The notes beneath the pieces were generated by a model. That model was not told the DNA's origin. It ran no database searches and saw nothing but the letters and a program-made list of their open reading frames with translations. Positions 30,355 to 39,365 of a stretch of DNA of 64,000 nt are shown one piece after another. Position 1 is the first letter of the stretch. Each line of letters opens with the position of its first letter. The translations under genes and the position numbers were made by a program. The DNA lies in assembly GCF_003019675.1 (NCBI RefSeq), contig NZ_CP028105.1, forward strand, positions 1,008,282-1,072,281, given 5' to 3'. Source of the stretch: Fusobacterium ulcerans. Its GTDB lineage: Bacteria; Fusobacteriota; Fusobacteriia; Fusobacteriales; Fusobacteriaceae.

Positions 30355-30702
30355 TGGTGGAGATGACGGGAATCGAACCCGTGTCCGAAATTGCCAGCGC
30401 CATAGGCTTCTACAAGCTTAGTCTGCTATTAGATTTCGCAGTAGTTAATCCCACAGACAGGGCTAACTAAAGCTATCCTCTGGAATGTCCCCTATAACTT
30501 AGAGAAATCATCTAGGGTAATCTGTATTTTAGTGACACCTTGGCTGAACACATTTACAGAAGAATATGTTCAAAGGTGAGCTGACATTAAGCAGCTAAAG
30601 CGTAATTTTTATTTCCATCTAAACGATGAGTTGACCTCTCACAGCGGTCACCCTGGCCTGCTACCTATAACCTGAGAACCCCGTCGAAACCTTTGCATCC
30701 CC
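30355..30702 (-). ncRNA. ssrA: Transfer-messenger RNA (tmRNA)
   Basis: 348 nt. The 5' end GGGGAUG pairs with CAUCUCC near the 3' end to form the tRNA-like acceptor stem, followed by an encoded CCA. The T-arm GGGTTCGATTCCC is intact, and the 5' GCAAAGGTTTCGACGGGG stretch is typical of tmRNA. The mRNA-like part (30616-30587) encodes GNKNYALAA and a stop, the degradation tag added to proteins on stalled ribosomes, ending in the usual ALAA. Pseudoknot-like stems fill the rest. The partner gene smpB lies just upstream in the same direction. Confidence 0.97.
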
Positions 30703-32526: not shown

Positions 32527-33408
32527 TTACTTCCTATTTTTCACATCTTTCCTGTCAAAAAGTTTTCTTCTCTCTGTAGACTGAATAAAGAGTTTTTTCA
32601 TTCCTTCCACATCTTCATTTACAAGTTTTTCTCTAAAATTATTCAGCTCTGCTGCAAAATCATCTATCTCCTTTACTAATATTTCCTTATTTAAAAGAAA
32701 AAGTTCACTCCACAAAACTTCATTAATTTTAGCTATCCTTGTAAGGTCTCTGAATGAATCTCCAGTATATTCTACAAGATGGGTATTATCGTTGGTATTC
32801 ATAAGAGATACTGCTATCACATGGGTAAGCTGAGACACAAACCCTATCATTTTATCATGCTCTTCAAGTGACAGCTGGGTAATATTTCTAAACCCAAGTA
32901 TTTCTCCCAGCTCCCTTGCAAATTTTATTCCTTCAGGTGTATTTTTTTCTGTAGGAGTAATGATGAAGTTGGCTATCTTAAAAATATTCTCATCACTGTT
33001 TCTCACACCGCTCACTTCTTTTCCAGCCATGGGATGAGAGCTTATAAATTCAACATCTTCAGATAGAAATCCCTGTACTTTGTCAGCTATTCCTCTTTTT
33101 ACTCCACTGACATCTGTGATTATACAGCCCTTTTTAAAATATTTTTGATTTTCCCTTAGCCATCCTACCATTGCAGTGGGATAAAGCCCTGATATTATCA
33201 CATCTGCTTTTTCTATCAACGAATTATAGTCAGAAACTGCTCCTTCATCTATTATATTATTTTCAAGAGCATATTCTATACTGTCTTCATTTATATCAGC
33301 AGCATATACAGTATATCCGTTTTTCTTGAGAGCTTTTGCATAAGCTCCTCCCAGAAGCCCTAATCCCACAATGAAAAATTTCATATCTTTATTTATCATA
33401 GCACTCAA
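32527..33408 (-). CDS. tyrA: Prephenate dehydrogenase
   Basis: About 290 residues. NAD(P)-dependent oxidative decarboxylation of prephenate to 4-hydroxyphenylpyruvate, for tyrosine. The Rossmann motif is VGLGLLGGAYAKAL, and SSHPMAGKEVSGV carries the active-site His. There is no fused chorismate mutase or ACT domain. The start is uncertain: TTG at 33408 has GGGG at good spacing within the end of aroA, while ATGs lie at 33399 and 33384, and family alignments favour MKFFIVGLG (33384). It is the last gene of the aro operon, overlapping aroA. Confidence 0.93.
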   Translation of the reverse strand: MSAMINKDMKFFIVGLGLLGGAYAKALKKNGYTVYAADINEDSIEYALENNIIDEGAVSDYNSLIEKADVIISGLYPTAMVGWLRENQKYFKKGCIITDVSGVKRGIADKVQGFLSEDVEFISSHPMAGKEVSGVRNSDENIFKIANFIITPTEKNTPEGIKFARELGEILGFRNITQLSLEEHDKMIGFVSQLTHVIAVSLMNTNDNTHLVEYTGDSFRDLTRIAKINEVLWSELFLLNKEILVKEIDDFAAELNNFREKLVNEDVEGMKKLFIQSTERRKLFDRKDVKNRK

Positions 33409-34660
33409 CCTTTACCCCTATTTTTTCTATATCTTCAAAAAAATCAGGATAAGACTTTTCCACTGCCTCTGCTCCATCTATAATGACAGGTTTATTCATA
33501 AGGGTAGCTGCTACAGCCATGCTCATAACTATTCTATGATCTTTATGCCCTGATACCTCTATTCCTCCATCATATATCTCTTTTCCAGATATAAAAATCT
33601 CATCCTCTGTAGTTTTAATAGATACTCCCAGCTTCAAAAGCTCCTCTTCCATAGCTGCTATTCTGTCGCTTTCCTTGTATCTCAATCTTCCAGCATTATA
33701 GATTCTGAAGTCTCCATCTCCATACATTCCCAATACATTGAGTATCGGCCCTAAGTCTGGACAATCTGCAAGGTCTATTTCACAGCCTTTAGGAGTACTT
33801 TTATGAATAAAGTATCCTCCCTCTATATTCTCTATATTCACACCACTGCTTCTCAATATCTCTATTACAGCCTTGTCTCCCTGCTTAGAGTCATGATTCA
33901 GCCCCAGACATTTAAGATCATTATTCACTGCTCCCAGCACTGCAAAGAACCCTAGCTGTGAAAAATCTCCTTCAATGGTATAGTCACAAGGACTGTATTT
34001 CTGATTTCCTCTGATTTTAAAAGTAAGCTCATCTTTTTGAAATATCTCTATTCCAAATCTTTTCAGCATCTCTAAAGTAAGGTCTATATATGAAGCTGAT
34101 TCAAAAGGAGGTCTTATTTTTATTTCAGAATCTCCCTCCAGCAAAGGAAGGGTAAAAAGAAGTCCGCTGATAAACTGCGAGCTTATATTTCCATCTATCT
34201 CATATGTTCCAGCTTTCAGTTTTCCTTCTATCTCCATCTTAGATTCATCATGATAGTAATGTAATTTCTGCTCTTTAAATATATCCTCATATATTTTTTG
34301 AGGTCTTTTCAGAAGTCTGTTTTTCCCAAGAAAAGTTATTTTCTTTCCAGTCAGGGAAAATATTGGTATAAAGAATCTCAAAGTTGACCCAGACTCATTA
34401 CAGTTTATAGTTTCATCTGAAATTTTTGTGATATCTTTTATCCCATCTATAATGAGGGTGCTTCCATTTTCCTCTATGACAGCTCCCAGTTTTCTCATTC
34501 CCTCTATTGTAGTTTTTATATCATCAGAATAAGCTGTATTTTTTATTATGCTTCTTCCAGGTGCCATTGATGCACATATTATTGCTCTATGTCCCATGCT
34601 TTTAGAAGGGGGGATAACTATCTGCCCACTGCATTTTGATGGATATATTTTTGCTTTCAT
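33389..34660 (-). CDS. aroA: 3-phosphoshikimate 1-carboxyvinyltransferase (EPSP synthase)
   Basis: 423 residues. Joins phosphoenolpyruvate to shikimate-3-phosphate. N-terminal PPSKSMGHRA matches the phosphate-binding motif, RYKESDRI and GHKDHRIVM are the C-terminal catalytic motifs, and GSTLRFF is present. Length is normal. GGAGG is at the correct distance. It lies between the DAHP synthase and tyrA genes in the operon. Confidence 0.96.
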   Translation of the reverse strand: MKAKIYPSKCSGQIVIPPSKSMGHRAIICASMAPGRSIIKNTAYSDDIKTTIEGMRKLGAVIEENGSTLIIDGIKDITKISDETINCNESGSTLRFFIPIFSLTGKKITFLGKNRLLKRPQKIYEDIFKEQKLHYYHDESKMEIEGKLKAGTYEIDGNISSQFISGLLFTLPLLEGDSEIKIRPPFESASYIDLTLEMLKRFGIEIFQKDELTFKIRGNQKYSPCDYTIEGDFSQLGFFAVLGAVNNDLKCLGLNHDSKQGDKAVIEILRSSGVNIENIEGGYFIHKSTPKGCEIDLADCPDLGPILNVLGMYGDGDFRIYNAGRLRYKESDRIAAMEEELLKLGVSIKTTEDEIFISGKEIYDGGIEVSGHKDHRIVMSMAVAATLMNKPVIIDGAEAVEKSYPDFFEDIEKIGVKVECYDK

Positions 34661-34687
34661 TTATTTGCTTCCTCCTTCTAATGAGTC

Positions 34688-35707
34688 TTACATATCTCTT
34701 CCAATAACTTTTGCTATTTTTCTTCCCTGCTCTATTAAATGCTTGAATTTTTTAGGTTTCAATGATTGAGCTCCATCACTCCAAGCATGCTCAGGGTCAT
34801 TATGCACCTCTATAATAAGTCCGTCTGCCCCAGCTGCAATAGCTGCCAATGCCATTGATTCTACATATTCCCAGTTTCCAGTAGCATGAGAAGGATCAAT
34901 TATTATAGGAAGATGTGTTTTTTGTTTAATGATAGGGATAACGCTAAGATCAAGAGTATTTCTAGTATATTTTTCAAAAGTTCTGATTCCTCTTTCACAA
35001 AGTATTACATTTTCATTTCCTCCAGCCATAATATATTCAGCTGACATTATCCATTCTTCTATTGTATTTGATAACCCTCTTTTTAAAAGAATAGGTTTAT
35101 TTATTTTTCCTACTGCTTTTAACAGATCAAAGTTCTGCATATTTCTTGCCCCTATTTGAATAAGGTCTACATTTTCAACAAATTCATCTATTTTATCTGC
35201 ACTCATAAGTTCGCTGACTATTGGAAGCCCATAAGTTTCTCTTGCTTTTACTAGACATTGAATTCCTTCACTGGCCATTCCCTGAAAAGCATATGGCGAT
35301 GTACGAGGTTTGTAAGCTCCTCCTCTCAGCATAGAAGCTCCTGCTTCTTTTACTTCCTTTGCTATCTCCATAACAGAGCACTCTCCCTCTACAGAACAAG
35401 GTCCTCCTATTACAGCAATTTTTTGTCCTGCTCCTATTTTGATTCCAGCTACATCAATAATGCTGTCTTCTGGATGGAAAAGTCTGTTGGCTTTTTTATA
35501 TGGTGCTGCTATTCTAGTTACATCTTCAACATATGGACTTGCCTTCAATGCTTTCTCATCTATTTTTGTAGTATCTCCCACTATACCAAATACATTGTAA
35601 TTTTCTCCAGATATAAGAGTTACTGCTACATCGTTCTTACTTTCTAAAGCCTCAATCATCTTTTGAATTTCTTCTTGTGGTGTGTTTTTCTTTAAAGTTA
35701 TTATCAT
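34688..35707 (-). CDS. aroF: 3-deoxy-7-phosphoheptulonate (DAHP) synthase
   Basis: 339 residues. First step of the shikimate pathway (PEP plus erythrose-4-phosphate). The N-terminal ~80 residues form the ferredoxin-like regulatory domain of the Thermotoga/Bacillus type. The catalytic barrel has GGPCSVE, RGGAYKPRTSPYAFQG, KRG and the metal-site DPSHATG. AGGGGG precedes the ATG. The regulatory domain suggests feedback by Tyr or Phe, in addition to attenuation at the leader. Confidence 0.94.
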   Translation of the reverse strand: MIITLKKNTPQEEIQKMIEALESKNDVAVTLISGENYNVFGIVGDTTKIDEKALKASPYVEDVTRIAAPYKKANRLFHPEDSIIDVAGIKIGAGQKIAVIGGPCSVEGECSVMEIAKEVKEAGASMLRGGAYKPRTSPYAFQGMASEGIQCLVKARETYGLPIVSELMSADKIDEFVENVDLIQIGARNMQNFDLLKAVGKINKPILLKRGLSNTIEEWIMSAEYIMAGGNENVILCERGIRTFEKYTRNTLDLSVIPIIKQKTHLPIIIDPSHATGNWEYVESMALAAIAAGADGLIIEVHNDPEHAWSDGAQSLKPKKFKHLIEQGRKIAKVIGRDM

Positions 35708-35793
35708 TTTTATTCCCCCTAAGTTTTTATATTTTTGTTTATTTCATATTTTAACTATTCTATATCTTACTTTATTCTATCTTCTCTTTCATT

Positions 35794-36903
35794 CTATTTT
35801 TTATCTGTCATCCACATATAGCCATATCTCATGCAGATGAGATCAAGAAGCCCAAAAGCTGTCATAGAATCTACAACCACTCTTGCTCTGTGTATTATAG
35901 CTGGGTCATGTCTTCCTTCTATATTAAATTTTACATTTTCCTTCTTAGCTATATCTACACTTTCCTGCTCCTTATATATTGATGGTGTAGGTTTTACAGC
36001 AATCTTCATTATAAGGGGCATAGAGTTAGATATTCCTCCATTAATCCCTCCATTATTATTTGTTTTAGTTTTTACTTCTCCATTTTCATAATAGAAGCTG
36101 TCATTTGCTTCACTTCCATACATCTCTGTCACTGCAAATCCAGCTCCAAATTCTATCCCTTTCACTGCTGGTATAGAATATATTAGGTGAGAAAGTACAC
36201 TTTCTACAGAATTAAAATAAGGTTCTCCTATTCCTGCTGGAAGTCCTGTCACAGCAGTTTCTAGTATTCCTCCTACTGAGTCCAGCTCCTCTCCAGCTTT
36301 TTCTATAAGTTTTTTCATTTTCTCTTCAGCAGCTTCCTCTATCACAGGAAAATATTTTGCATTTACTTCCCTTATCTCCTTCAATAACACGCTTTCTTCA
36401 GAAGAAAAACTCTTATCTTTCTCATTTCTGCATTTTAATATGTGAGTTCCTATTTCTATTCCTTTAGATCTGAGTACCTGAATAAATATTGCCCCTGCTG
36501 CTACCAGAGGTGCTGTTATTCTTCCAGAGAAATGTCCTCCTCCTCTATAGTCCTGATATCCCATATATTTTGCATCTGCTGTATAATCAGCATGAGAAGG
36601 CCTCATTATACTCTTAGTTTTCTCATAATCTCTGCTCATTTGTGATTTATTTTCAATTATGAGGCATAATGGTGTTCCTGTTGTATATCCATTGAAATAT
36701 CCGCTGACTATTTTAAAATCATCTGCTTCGTGTCTTTGAGTAGATATTTTTCCCTTTGGCTTCCTTTTCTCCAGCTGTTCTTGTATAAAGTCAGTATCTA
36801 ATTTTATTCCCGGAGCTAGCCCATCTATCACGATTCCAATAGCTGTCCCATGTGATTCTCCAAAAAGACTGAGTTTTATACTATTCCCTATTGTACTCTG
36901 CAT
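35794..36903 (-). CDS. aroC: Chorismate synthase
   Basis: 369 residues. FMN-dependent conversion of EPSP to chorismate. Motifs: GESHGTAIGIVIDG at the N-terminus, RPSHADYT, YRGGGHFSGRITA, and GGINGGISNSMP. AGGAGG precedes the ATG. An 86-nt gap to the next gene is the largest inside the operon. Confidence 0.97.
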   Translation of the reverse strand: MQSTIGNSIKLSLFGESHGTAIGIVIDGLAPGIKLDTDFIQEQLEKRKPKGKISTQRHEADDFKIVSGYFNGYTTGTPLCLIIENKSQMSRDYEKTKSIMRPSHADYTADAKYMGYQDYRGGGHFSGRITAPLVAAGAIFIQVLRSKGIEIGTHILKCRNEKDKSFSSEESVLLKEIREVNAKYFPVIEEAAEEKMKKLIEKAGEELDSVGGILETAVTGLPAGIGEPYFNSVESVLSHLIYSIPAVKGIEFGAGFAVTEMYGSEANDSFYYENGEVKTKTNNNGGINGGISNSMPLIMKIAVKPTPSIYKEQESVDIAKKENVKFNIEGRHDPAIIHRARVVVDSMTAFGLLDLICMRYGYMWMTDKK

Positions 36904-36913
36904 TTTTCCTCCT

Positions 36914-37915
36914 CTATTTCAGATAATTTTTACATTCCTCCATTGGAACTTTTACCAGTTCAGCTTTTCCCAGCTCTCTTACTTTTACCAGAGTTATCTT
37001 ATCCTGATCAGCTTTTTTATCTTTGAGCATAAGTTCAAATACTTTATCACAATCATATTTTATCTCTGTATCTATATTCATCTTTTTCAATATATTTTTA
37101 GTTCTCTCTCTAAGTTCTTCATTCTCTATCATAGGAAGCATTCCCATAGCCACTCCCTCTCCATGAAGTACATCTTTCAAATGGAAGAACCCTTCTATTC
37201 CATGGCCGATAGTATGACCAAAGTTCAATATTTTTCTAAGATTTTCCTCTCTCTCATCTTTTTCAACTACATCTTTTTTTACTAAAAGTGCTCTATAGAT
37301 TATCTCTTGAAGACTGCTGTCTATATCTTTCTCTTCAAATATTTCAAAGAGTTTTTCATCGTATATAAGCCCAGCTTTCAAAGCTTCAACCAGTCCATTG
37401 TAATAGTGCCTTTTAGGAAGAGTCTCTAAAACTTCCGGGTCTATGAATACTCCTTTCGGCTGATAAAAAGCTCCTATTATATTTTTAGTATCTCCCAGAT
37501 TTATTGCTGTTTTCCCTCCAATAGAGCTGTCTATCTGAGAAAGTGTAGTTGTCGGTATATTTATGAAATCTATTCCTCTCATGTATGAAGCAGCTGAGAA
37601 TCCTGCAAGATCCCCTACCACTCCCCCTCCCAGAGCTATTACAAGATCTTTTCTATGAAAGCCATATTCAAGGAGTTTTTGACATACTTCTTCAAATACT
37701 CTAAAACTCTTTGCTCCCTCTCCCTGTTCTACAATAATTGAATAACCATCAGAACATTGAGCTTTTAATATATCTGTATATTTTTTAGGAACTCCTGTAT
37801 CTGTCACTATCATAACTTTTCTATTTAAGTCTATATATTCTTTTATTCTATAAAGTATCCCTTTTTCAATATGAATATCATAACTTTTTTCTTTAAGATC
37901 TATTCTCAGTTTCAT
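36914..37915 (-). CDS. aroB: 3-dehydroquinate synthase
   Basis: About 333 residues. NAD- and metal-dependent cyclisation of DAHP to 3-dehydroquinate. GGGVVGDLAGF, TTLSQIDSSIGGKTAIN and the metal-ligand His of FGHTIGHGIE are present. A longer frame begins at 37957, but AGGAGG lies before the ATG at 37915, and the extra sequence belongs to the attenuator. First structural gene after the leader. Confidence 0.96.
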   Translation of the reverse strand: MKLRIDLKEKSYDIHIEKGILYRIKEYIDLNRKVMIVTDTGVPKKYTDILKAQCSDGYSIIVEQGEGAKSFRVFEEVCQKLLEYGFHRKDLVIALGGGVVGDLAGFSAASYMRGIDFINIPTTTLSQIDSSIGGKTAINLGDTKNIIGAFYQPKGVFIDPEVLETLPKRHYYNGLVEALKAGLIYDEKLFEIFEEKDIDSSLQEIIYRALLVKKDVVEKDEREENLRKILNFGHTIGHGIEGFFHLKDVLHGEGVAMGMLPMIENEELRERTKNILKKMNIDTEIKYDCDKVFELMLKDKKADQDKITLVKVRELGKAELVKVPMEECKNYLK

Positions 37916-37942: not shown

Positions 37943-37975
37943 TATAAAAAAAAGCATTCAATTCCTTGAATGCTT
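37943..37975 (-). terminator. Attenuator terminator in front of aroB
   Basis: Ten-bp stem AAGCATTCAA / TTGAATGCTT with a 4-nt loop, followed on the minus strand by eight T. It ends about 28 nt before the aroB start codon and comes after the leader peptide, so it would end transcription before the operon unless prevented. Confidence 0.88.
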
Positions 37976-37977
37976 CG

Positions 37978-38023
37978 CCTTGATACAACAAAAGACCATA
38001 AGGGCTTTATGGTTGTATCAAGG
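37978..38023 (-). promoter_or_regulatory. Leader hairpin between leader peptide and terminator
   Basis: A 12-bp arm pair CCTTGATACAAC / GTTGTATCAAGG with an inner CCATAA/TTATGG stem. It begins directly after the leader-peptide stop codon. TCAAGG occurs again in the terminator region, so the CCTTGA arm has an alternative partner. That would suit a switch between antiterminator and terminator forms; the details are inferred. Confidence 0.65.
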
Positions 38024-38074
38024 CTATCTAAAGTAAAATCTGAATACTATGTTATTTGCTTTTTTATTTCTCAT
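38024..38074 (-). CDS. aro operon leader peptide (Phe/Tyr-rich)
   Basis: A 16-residue peptide MRNKKANNIVFRFYFR ending in TAG; four of its last six residues are aromatic (F, F, Y, F). GGAG lies 9 nt before the ATG. It is followed at once by a large hairpin and then an intrinsic terminator before aroB, the layout of amino-acid leader-peptide attenuation as in pheA or trp leaders. Ribosome stalling when charged Phe or Tyr tRNA is scarce would favour read-through into aroB-aroC-aroF-aroA-tyrA. No experiment supports it here; the reading rests on layout. Confidence 0.75.
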   Translation of the reverse strand: MRNKKANNIVFRFYFR

Positions 38075-38106
38075 AAGTTACCACTCCGAAAAAACGAATT
38101 TTACTT

Positions 38107-38135
38107 ATAATAAACCTATATTGAAAATTTTGCAA
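38107..38135 (-). promoter_or_regulatory. Promoter of the aro operon leader
   Basis: TTGCAA (38135-38130), 17-bp spacer, TATTAT (38112-38107) on the minus strand. This places the start about 25 nt before the leader-peptide ribosome site. Confidence 0.7.
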
Positions 38136-38256
38136 CATTTTTTTTAATTTTTTTGAAATCTCAATATATATATTCCCTAAGACTTCCTATTTCTACAGAC
38201 TTTAAAGTTCTTATGCAAAAACAAATTTTTTTTATGTAGAATGTATTCAAAAATAG

Positions 38257-38265
38257 TGCTATAAT
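38257..38265 (+). promoter_or_regulatory. Extended -10 promoter of pheA
   Basis: TGCTATAAT, an extended -10 element, lies 30 bp before the pheA ATG. No good -35 box is visible. GGGGGAG serves as the ribosome site. Confidence 0.6.
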
Positions 38266-38294
38266 AATTTCAAAATTCAAAGGGGGAGTAAAAT

Positions 38295-39365
38295 ATGAAT
38301 AAATTGGAAGAAGCCAGAAAGATCATAAATGAAGTAGACAAAGAAGTTGCAGCTCTTTTCCAAAAAAGAATGCAGGCTGTAGAAGATGTCATTTTATACA
38401 AACTGGAAAATGATATGCCTATTTTTGACAGTGGAAGAGAAAAACAGGTAATAGAAAAAAACTGTGCTTATATCACAGAGGAAAAATATATTGAATCATA
38501 CAAGGAATTTATTCAAAATCTTATGGATACTTCTAAGAGATATCAGGCATCTATCATCAACAAAGGTGTTGTTGCATATCAAGGAACTATGGGAGCATTC
38601 TCTCATATTGCCTCAAAAAAAGTTTTCCCAGATTCAAAATTAAAGTCATACGCAACTTTTGAAGATGTATTCAAAGCTGTTGCTGATGGGGGAGCAGCAT
38701 ATGGAGTTATTCCTTTTGAAAATTCATATACAGGAGAAGTGGGAGAAGTTCTTGATCTGCTTTCAAAATATGACTGCCATATCTCTGGAATCTATGATTT
38801 AAAAATAGATCAAAATTTATTGGGATTAAAAAATGCAGAAATAAAAGATATAGAAAAAGTTTATTCACATCATCAGGCACTGTCACAATGTCAGACGTTC
38901 TTAAAAGGAACTAACTTTGAGGCTATTCCTTATCCTAATACTGCCCTTGCAGCTAAATTTGTAAGCGAAGCAGGAGACATCCATAAAGCTGCTATTGCCA
39001 GCAGAGAAACTGCTGAACTTTATGGTTTAAAAATTCTTGTTGAAAATATAAATACAAGTACAGAAAACACTACAAGATTTATTATACTGACTAAAAAACT
39101 TGAAGAAAAAGGAGATAGATTTAATCTTCTCTTTACTGTTGACCACAACGCTGGACAGCTGGCACACATTATTCAGATAGTAGCTGAGCATGGATTCAAT
39201 ATGGAAAGCATCAGATCTCGTTCTCTTCACAATCTTCCTTGGCAGTATTTCTTCTATGTAGAAATAGTAGGAGATTTGAGAGAACAAAGAACAAAAGATT
39301 TAATAGAAGCTATGAGAAAAAATTGTAAAGACCTTAAAATATTAGGAAGTTATTCTGTTAAATAA
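38295..39365 (+). CDS. pheA: Bifunctional chorismate mutase / prephenate dehydratase
   Basis: 356 residues. Residues 1-85: AroQ-type chorismate mutase helices. About 92-270: prephenate dehydratase (AYQGTMGAFSH at its start, and the catalytic TTRF as NTTRFI). About 280-356: ACT domain for phenylalanine feedback, with ESIRSRSLH. It makes phenylpyruvate for phenylalanine. Divergent from the aro operon, sharing a ~220-bp regulatory region, so the two branches can be balanced. Confidence 0.96.
   Translation: MNKLEEARKIINEVDKEVAALFQKRMQAVEDVILYKLENDMPIFDSGREKQVIEKNCAYITEEKYIESYKEFIQNLMDTSKRYQASIINKGVVAYQGTMGAFSHIASKKVFPDSKLKSYATFEDVFKAVADGGAAYGVIPFENSYTGEVGEVLDLLSKYDCHISGIYDLKIDQNLLGLKNAEIKDIEKVYSHHQALSQCQTFLKGTNFEAIPYPNTALAAKFVSEAGDIHKAAIASRETAELYGLKILVENINTSTENTTRFIILTKKLEEKGDRFNLLFTVDHNAGQLAHIIQIVAEHGFNMESIRSRSLHNLPWQYFFYVEIVGDLREQRTKDLIEAMRKNCKDLKILGSYSVK

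Follow-up and report, generated by a model that had tools for sequence, protein, structure and literature searches.

The aroB gene of Fusobacterium ulcerans is preceded by an RNA leader that is probably a ribosome-mediated transcription attenuator, sensing the charging of tRNA-Phe and tRNA-Tyr and controlling aroB-aroC-aroF-aroA-tyrA. Sensing of phenylalanine and tyrosine is considered probable because, in dozens of Erysipelotrichales, the same device precedes genes of the aromatic pathway. The leader was found in the window, i.e., the whole 64,000-nucleotide stretch of DNA that was analysed, with all of its expected parts present:

38135..37943, minus strand: the whole leader element, promoter included, ahead of aroB
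38107..38135, minus strand: sigma-70-like promoter, TTGCAA-17-TATTAT, from a consensus scan (two congeners, L004 and L005, read TACTAT)
38075..38100, minus strand: leader 5' UTR, containing a GGAG ribosome site at 38087-38084
38024..38074, minus strand: leader peptide ORF of 16 codons, MRNKKANNIVFRFYFR and stop, from ATG 38074 to TAG 38026-38024
37977..38024, minus strand: hairpin SL1, composed of the outer stem P1 and the inner hairpin P2
38024-38012 / 37989-37977, minus strand: stem P1, GCCTTGATACAAC/GTTGTATCAAGGC, 13 bp, opening with the G of the TAG stop codon
37996..38012, minus strand: inner hairpin P2, CCATAA/TTATGG, within SL1, with CCA/UGG invariant wherever aligned
37995-37989, minus strand: U-rich stretch TCTTTTG, 3' of P2 and part of SL1
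37946..37976, minus strand: intrinsic terminator T, GAAGCATTCAAGGAATTGAATGC plus eight T, an 11-bp hairpin with its stem at 37976-37951
36914..37915, minus strand: aroB, first gene of the presumed controlled operon, above the TIGR01357 cut-off, with the SD AAAGGAGG
32527..36903, minus strand: aroC, aroF (DAHP synthase), aroA, and tyrA (prephenate dehydrogenase), by NCBIfam families

The leader peptide terminates in F-R-F-Y-F-R immediately before its stop codon, the phenylalanine and tyrosine codons (TTC TTT TAC TTT) occupying 38044-38030. A first-pass annotation of this DNA had described a 16-residue peptide of this kind with a ribosome site and promoter of its own, all of which were located on the minus strand, followed by a hairpin that was likewise recovered, albeit with a stem of 13 bp instead of the 12 bp reported. 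The strong terminator it had placed before the five genes was also found, together with its run of eight T. A conserved short ORF with a ribosome-binding site and end-product codons, and a terminator before the first gene, are the general marks of a leader-peptide attenuator, and each is present here. The consensus scan returned one intrinsic terminator where 0.1 was expected, and the leader RNA folds with a z of -4.85. In 6 Mb of Markov-random DNA with the dinucleotide composition of the window, 124 short F/Y-rich ORFs with an SD were encountered, none of which (0/124) had a 9-bp stem at its stop codon and none a terminator, whereas the full layout of F/Y ORF, stem, and terminator occurs exactly once in the window, as the aroB leader. 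Given the absence of any such layout from the random DNA and a conservation of the leader above that of the third codon positions of aroB, the layout is no product of chance. A repeat or mobile element was ruled out, the leader having no second copy in the genome. The leader 5' UTR (38075-38100), whose sequence is identical in four species, can also fold onto its own SD (UUUUCGGAGU/ACUUAUGAGAA).

The true start of aroB is taken as ATG 37915, which is preceded by the SD AAAGGAGG; the automatic ORF start, ATG 37957, sits within terminator T. The identities of aroB, aroC, DAHP synthase, aroA, tyrA, and the divergent pheA are supported by NCBIfam, and the first five are presumably co-transcribed as an operon. 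The pheA gene, encoding chorismate mutase-prephenate dehydratase, diverges from 38295 on the other side of the leader, with a promoter-like site of its own within 38140-38295. Inspection of that interval by eye disclosed neither a leader peptide nor a terminator for pheA, although its product makes phenylalanine. Elsewhere in the window, a tmRNA gene (Rfam RF00023) lies at 30355-30702 on the minus strand.

All 12 Fusobacterium genomes compared carry AroB, and the leader is present in four only, namely the window species and three congeners. Across these four species, the leader 5' UTR (25 bases) and terminator T are 100% identical and SL1 is 99% identical. Codons 9-16 of the leader ORF show 98% identity among the four (96% for the window against its congeners) and codons 1-8 show 90% (82%), to be set against 78% (68%) for the third codon positions of aroB and 80% (73%) for the intergenic DNA beside the promoter; the promoter is 94% conserved in the congeners versus the 80% of that adjoining DNA. 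Hence, the Fusobacterium leader is more conserved than the third positions of aroB. The peptide substitutions in the congeners (N3D, A6T, and N7D) all fall outside the aromatic part, inside which only a TAC/TAT exchange occurs.

The relatives of this AroB are found chiefly in Erysipelotrichaceae and Clostridia. The same anatomy precedes aroB in Longicatena and others, with the peptides MHNKGFYYYL, MSKPFSYYYFQ, MLFNRYYYS, MRNNAYFYYYE, and MHIHEIYSYYYFR, each ending at a stop codon that bears a hairpin and is followed by a GCATC...GATGC terminator. A rule-based scan of the collected loci returned only sites that precede aroB. For searching alone, a covariance model (R1) was built from three Erysipelotrichales leaders with their spacers trimmed; by the rough E-values that such home-made models furnish, R1, which contains no Fusobacterium sequence, recovers the Fusobacterium leaders at E 0.0015-0.0024 in 346 kb (window E 0.0024), and a second model, R2, of which the window leader is itself a part, scores the window at 82.6 bits (E 2.3e-10 in its own genome). 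Alongside this R2 score, the window displays the remaining hallmarks of the family: an F/Y ORF ending at P1, a covarying P1, the CCA/UGG of P2, and a terminator. With both models, the leader was detected in 33/316 genomes of the order to which Longicatena belongs and in 4/98 Fusobacteriota genomes, counts that are lower bounds because the search filters were strict; it is thus not general to fusobacteria. The remainder of the 392 genomes of the phylum gave no convincing match, and the 398 genomes of the Faecalibacterium phylum gave one weak candidate match.

Of 57 model matches, which include some duplicate records and two (L176 and L178) without a leader ORF, 55 precede aroB (32), aroE-aroK (17), or aroF/DAHP synthase (6) on reading of the table, the aroE and aroF counts resting on three loci checked by family search and, for the others, on N-terminal resemblance. 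Seven matches (L130, L132, L134, L176, L178, L194, and L195) were discarded as chance hits of the models. The unlinked leaders of Erysipelotrichales stand before aroE-aroK (L108, L129, L131, L135, L160, L161, L180-L186, and L189-L192) and aroF (L163, L167, L169, L172, L187, and L188); aroE is fused to shikimate kinase in both of the two loci checked, and several genomes carry two leaders each at unlinked loci. The designation of the target as a shikimate operon was therefore right for the window yet incomplete, the Erysipelotrichales leaders at aroE-aroK and aroF suggesting what amounts to a small RNA-controlled aromatic regulon. In all, the family comprises about 50 leaders in which the end of the peptide is F/Y-rich and P1 covaries. 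It adds a group of aromatic amino acid attenuators at three loci (the aroB operon, aroE-aroK, and aroF) that falls below every Rfam cut-off. One variant leader (L170, 1501-1618) has its tyrosine run in a longer frame that apparently continues into the 3' part of SL1.

Over 43 distinct peptides, the seven C-terminal residues consist of 36% Tyr and 27% Phe (63% F+Y, as against 7% in the remainder), and tryptophan is absent from the last seven codons (zero in 301 residues). Outside the aromatic run, the peptides have little sequence in common, which argues for a leader that reads codons, and hence tRNA, rather than for an arrest peptide. The bias also bears on the proposal that the uORF is real while T is constitutive and partly leaky, SL1 or the peptide acting on mRNA stability, translation, or pausing with no amino acid response. 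The structural independence of P1 and T would suit such an arrangement, but the codons are biased to Phe/Tyr, a bias restricted in about 50 leaders to genes of the aromatic pathway, and this proposal is regarded as the least credible of those weighed here, having scarcely any likelihood.

The first-pass annotation had recommended a comparison of the leader frame, its aromatic codons, and its stems among relatives; the frame and the aromatic codons proved to be conserved in the three congeners and in about 50 leaders of another phylum, the stem covarying strongly. In an alignment of 21 distinct leaders that was fitted to the structure, P1 and T having first been found by unaligned searches, 8/8 modelled pairs of P1 and 5/7 pairs of T vary on both sides; 99.4% of the cells are paired for P1 and 99.2% for P1 and T together, the latter proportion being attained in 0/500 shuffles. 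No variation was seen in the CCA/UGG of P2 among these 21 leaders. When 49 leaders were considered, the top covariation scores were those of P1 and T pairs. In 15/16 leaders, the start of P1 lies -2 to +2 bases from where the stop codon ends. Both CCA/UGG and AGCAU/AUGCU are conserved beyond what pairing alone needs. In six leaders (L023, L025, L034, L125, L126, and L133), the ribosome site could pair strongly with the 3' arm of P2 and with the U-rich strand (-14 to -20 kcal/mol), which would silence translation of the leader; as a general feature it was rejected, being strong in a subset of leaders and absent from the window.

The attenuator proposed here would operate through the position of the ribosome. 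A ribosome at the stop codon would mask about ten bases in the 5' arm of P1, whereas one starved on the Phe/Tyr codons would leave P1 largely able to fold. Whether the polymerase stops at T would then depend on the state of P1 and of the inner P2 and U-rich element, with starvation leading to read-through. P2 and the U-rich stretch may constitute a pause site. That P1 is coupled to the terminator is our inference.

The first-pass annotation had called this the classical attenuation layout, a description that did not hold, given that the P1 hairpin and terminator T have zero bases in common and no antiterminator emerged from a test that recovers 4/5 E. coli leaders. In that test, the sequestration of the terminator 5' arm was followed against the position of the ribosome 3' edge, with trpL, pheL, pheM, thrL, and hisL of E. 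coli MG1655 as controls. In the first four, pairing of the 5' arm with upstream RNA stands at about 0.8 as long as the ribosome edge is upstream and drops below about 0.1-0.2 once the edge has moved well beyond the stop codon. The test is incomplete, as hisL, too, scores low, probably because its antiterminator uses the inner part of the terminator. In 18 family leaders (the window and 17 relatives) with the edge upstream, sequestration was mostly 0-0.3 and no antiterminator was found. The equilibrium probability of the terminator as a function of ribosome position, which is about 1 throughout the family, was dropped as uninformative, for E. coli trpL gives about 1 as well.

With the edge at or past the stop codon (+9 to +24), sequestration of the 5' arm rises somewhat in many family leaders, in the direction opposite to the classical one. 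Such a rise is what would be anticipated if P1 were an anti-antiterminator that is blocked by a ribosome at the stop codon, releasing the U-rich segment and the 3' segment of P1 to capture the terminator 5' arm, so that read-through ensues when phenylalanine and tyrosine are plentiful. Nevertheless, the segments concerned do not co-evolve, they would be held together by weak AU pairs, and the arrangement makes little metabolic sense; such reversed polarity is accordingly deemed very improbable.

Co-evolution was assessed by a region-swap test, in which the pairing energy of each leader's own regions was compared with that of swapped ones over 43 non-redundant leaders. P1 averaged -11.6 kcal/mol for own versus -4.3 for other pairings, T averaged -9.6 versus -8.1, and a weak excess was seen within P2. 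No other region co-evolves with the terminator 5' half in this test, which is blind to invariant segments (CCA/UGG and AGCAU). The P1 arms tend to avoid pairing elsewhere (e.g., p = 0.9995 for P2 versus the P1 3' arm), a pattern that would fit an insulated SL1. On the strength of the low sequestration of the 5' arm and the lack of a co-evolving pair beyond P1, T, and weakly P2, classical base-pair competition for that arm is not supported by these models.

A trp/phe-type attenuator of the classical kind could still have been missed if its exclusive antiterminator lay in invariant segments, the AAAGCA of the terminator being bound by the U-rich stretch together with the UGG in the 3' arm of P2, or if it formed only co-transcriptionally. 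The conservation of CCA/UGG and AGCAU/AUGCU beyond the needs of pairing, to which the swap test is blind, and the similarly low score of E. coli hisL lend some weight to this account. The candidate pairing, however, contains a G-G mismatch, is weak, with an own mean of about -4 kcal/mol that does not improve on that of cross pairs, and breaks in UUGG leaders, while the P1 3' arm shows no co-evolution with the terminator 5' half (p = 0.94), and we consider the account unlikely. Given that the usual competition for the terminator 5' arm is not apparent, SL1 may instead act on the polymerase, by pausing or antitermination, or via a bound factor. An attenuator class devoid of a competing antiterminator is accordingly put forward with considerable reserve: the position of the ribosome on the Phe/Tyr codons would decide only the folding of SL1, and SL1, with its covarying stem, invariant CCA/UGG hairpin, and U-rich strand, would let the polymerase pass the terminator directly or via such a factor. 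If the absence of an antiterminator is real, ribosome position can control termination without strand competition. Three further candidates were rejected: a duplex between CUUU in the final leader codons and AAAG at the base of the terminator, present in several leaders with no own-versus-swapped excess; re-initiation at the [A/G/U]UGG of P2, spotted by eye, which has no SD and no conserved frames; and a T-box or mimicry of the tRNA end by CCA/UGG, which has no Rfam support, the Rfam T-box covariance model matching neither the window nor 14 related loci.

Like pheM/pheL and trpL of E. coli, the leader combines a short peptide rich in codons for pathway products, a pairing strand right after the stop codon, and an intrinsic terminator before the operon, and the start of P1 matches the position of the antiterminator 5' strand in pheM. 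In pheM, however, the partner of the strand following the stop codon is the 5' arm of the terminator itself, whereas in the window that strand has a separate partner and the 5' arm of the terminator stays free. The Rfam Phe_leader family (RF01859) scores the window at 24.5 bits, below its gathering cut-off of 55, and no Rfam family matches the leader at gathering threshold. Histidine leader-peptide attenuators, with alternative antiterminator structures, have been described in six Erysipelotrichales species (PMC9413887); they, too, are leader-peptide attenuators of this taxonomic order, with cognate codon runs directly upstream of the attenuator hairpin, and differ in their histidine codons and his operon.

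Phe/Tyr uORFs ahead of shikimate genes are not a new idea, such motifs having been reported in two papers. The uORFC-13-1 motif, located upstream of aroF with Phe codons and a terminator, resembles the leader by description in its uORF, further stem, intrinsic terminator, and shikimate gene; it is reported there in Acholeplasma and for aroF only, with no mention of Fusobacterium for the motif (PMC8632094). Two F/Y uORF candidates of shikimate genes, given in a legend (Fig. 6b) that likewise does not mention Fusobacterium for them, again by description, share the Phe and Tyr codons, a stem, a terminator, and the shikimate genes (PMC6429828). What appear to be new are this leader family, its reach into Fusobacterium, and its missing antiterminator. 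The literature search found no paper joining leader peptide, transcription attenuation, and Fusobacterium, in agreement with the earlier remark that no such leader was known from fusobacteria, and this is apparently the first aromatic amino acid attenuator in Fusobacterium in the literature searched.

In the AroB tree, a single clade holds the six Fusobacterium sequences of the window type, and the AroB of the six remaining Fusobacterium genomes falls elsewhere. This clade lies inside a well-supported group that also contains Erysipelotrichales and other Firmicutes, and whose internal branch order the tree does not resolve. Because this AroB nests among Erysipelotrichales proteins, the Fusobacterium operon was probably acquired horizontally from Erysipelotrichales together with its leader, a regulatory RNA seemingly having crossed phyla along with the operon it precedes. 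For the two species of the window-type clade that have no leader (L007 and L008), its later loss would be the simplest reading.
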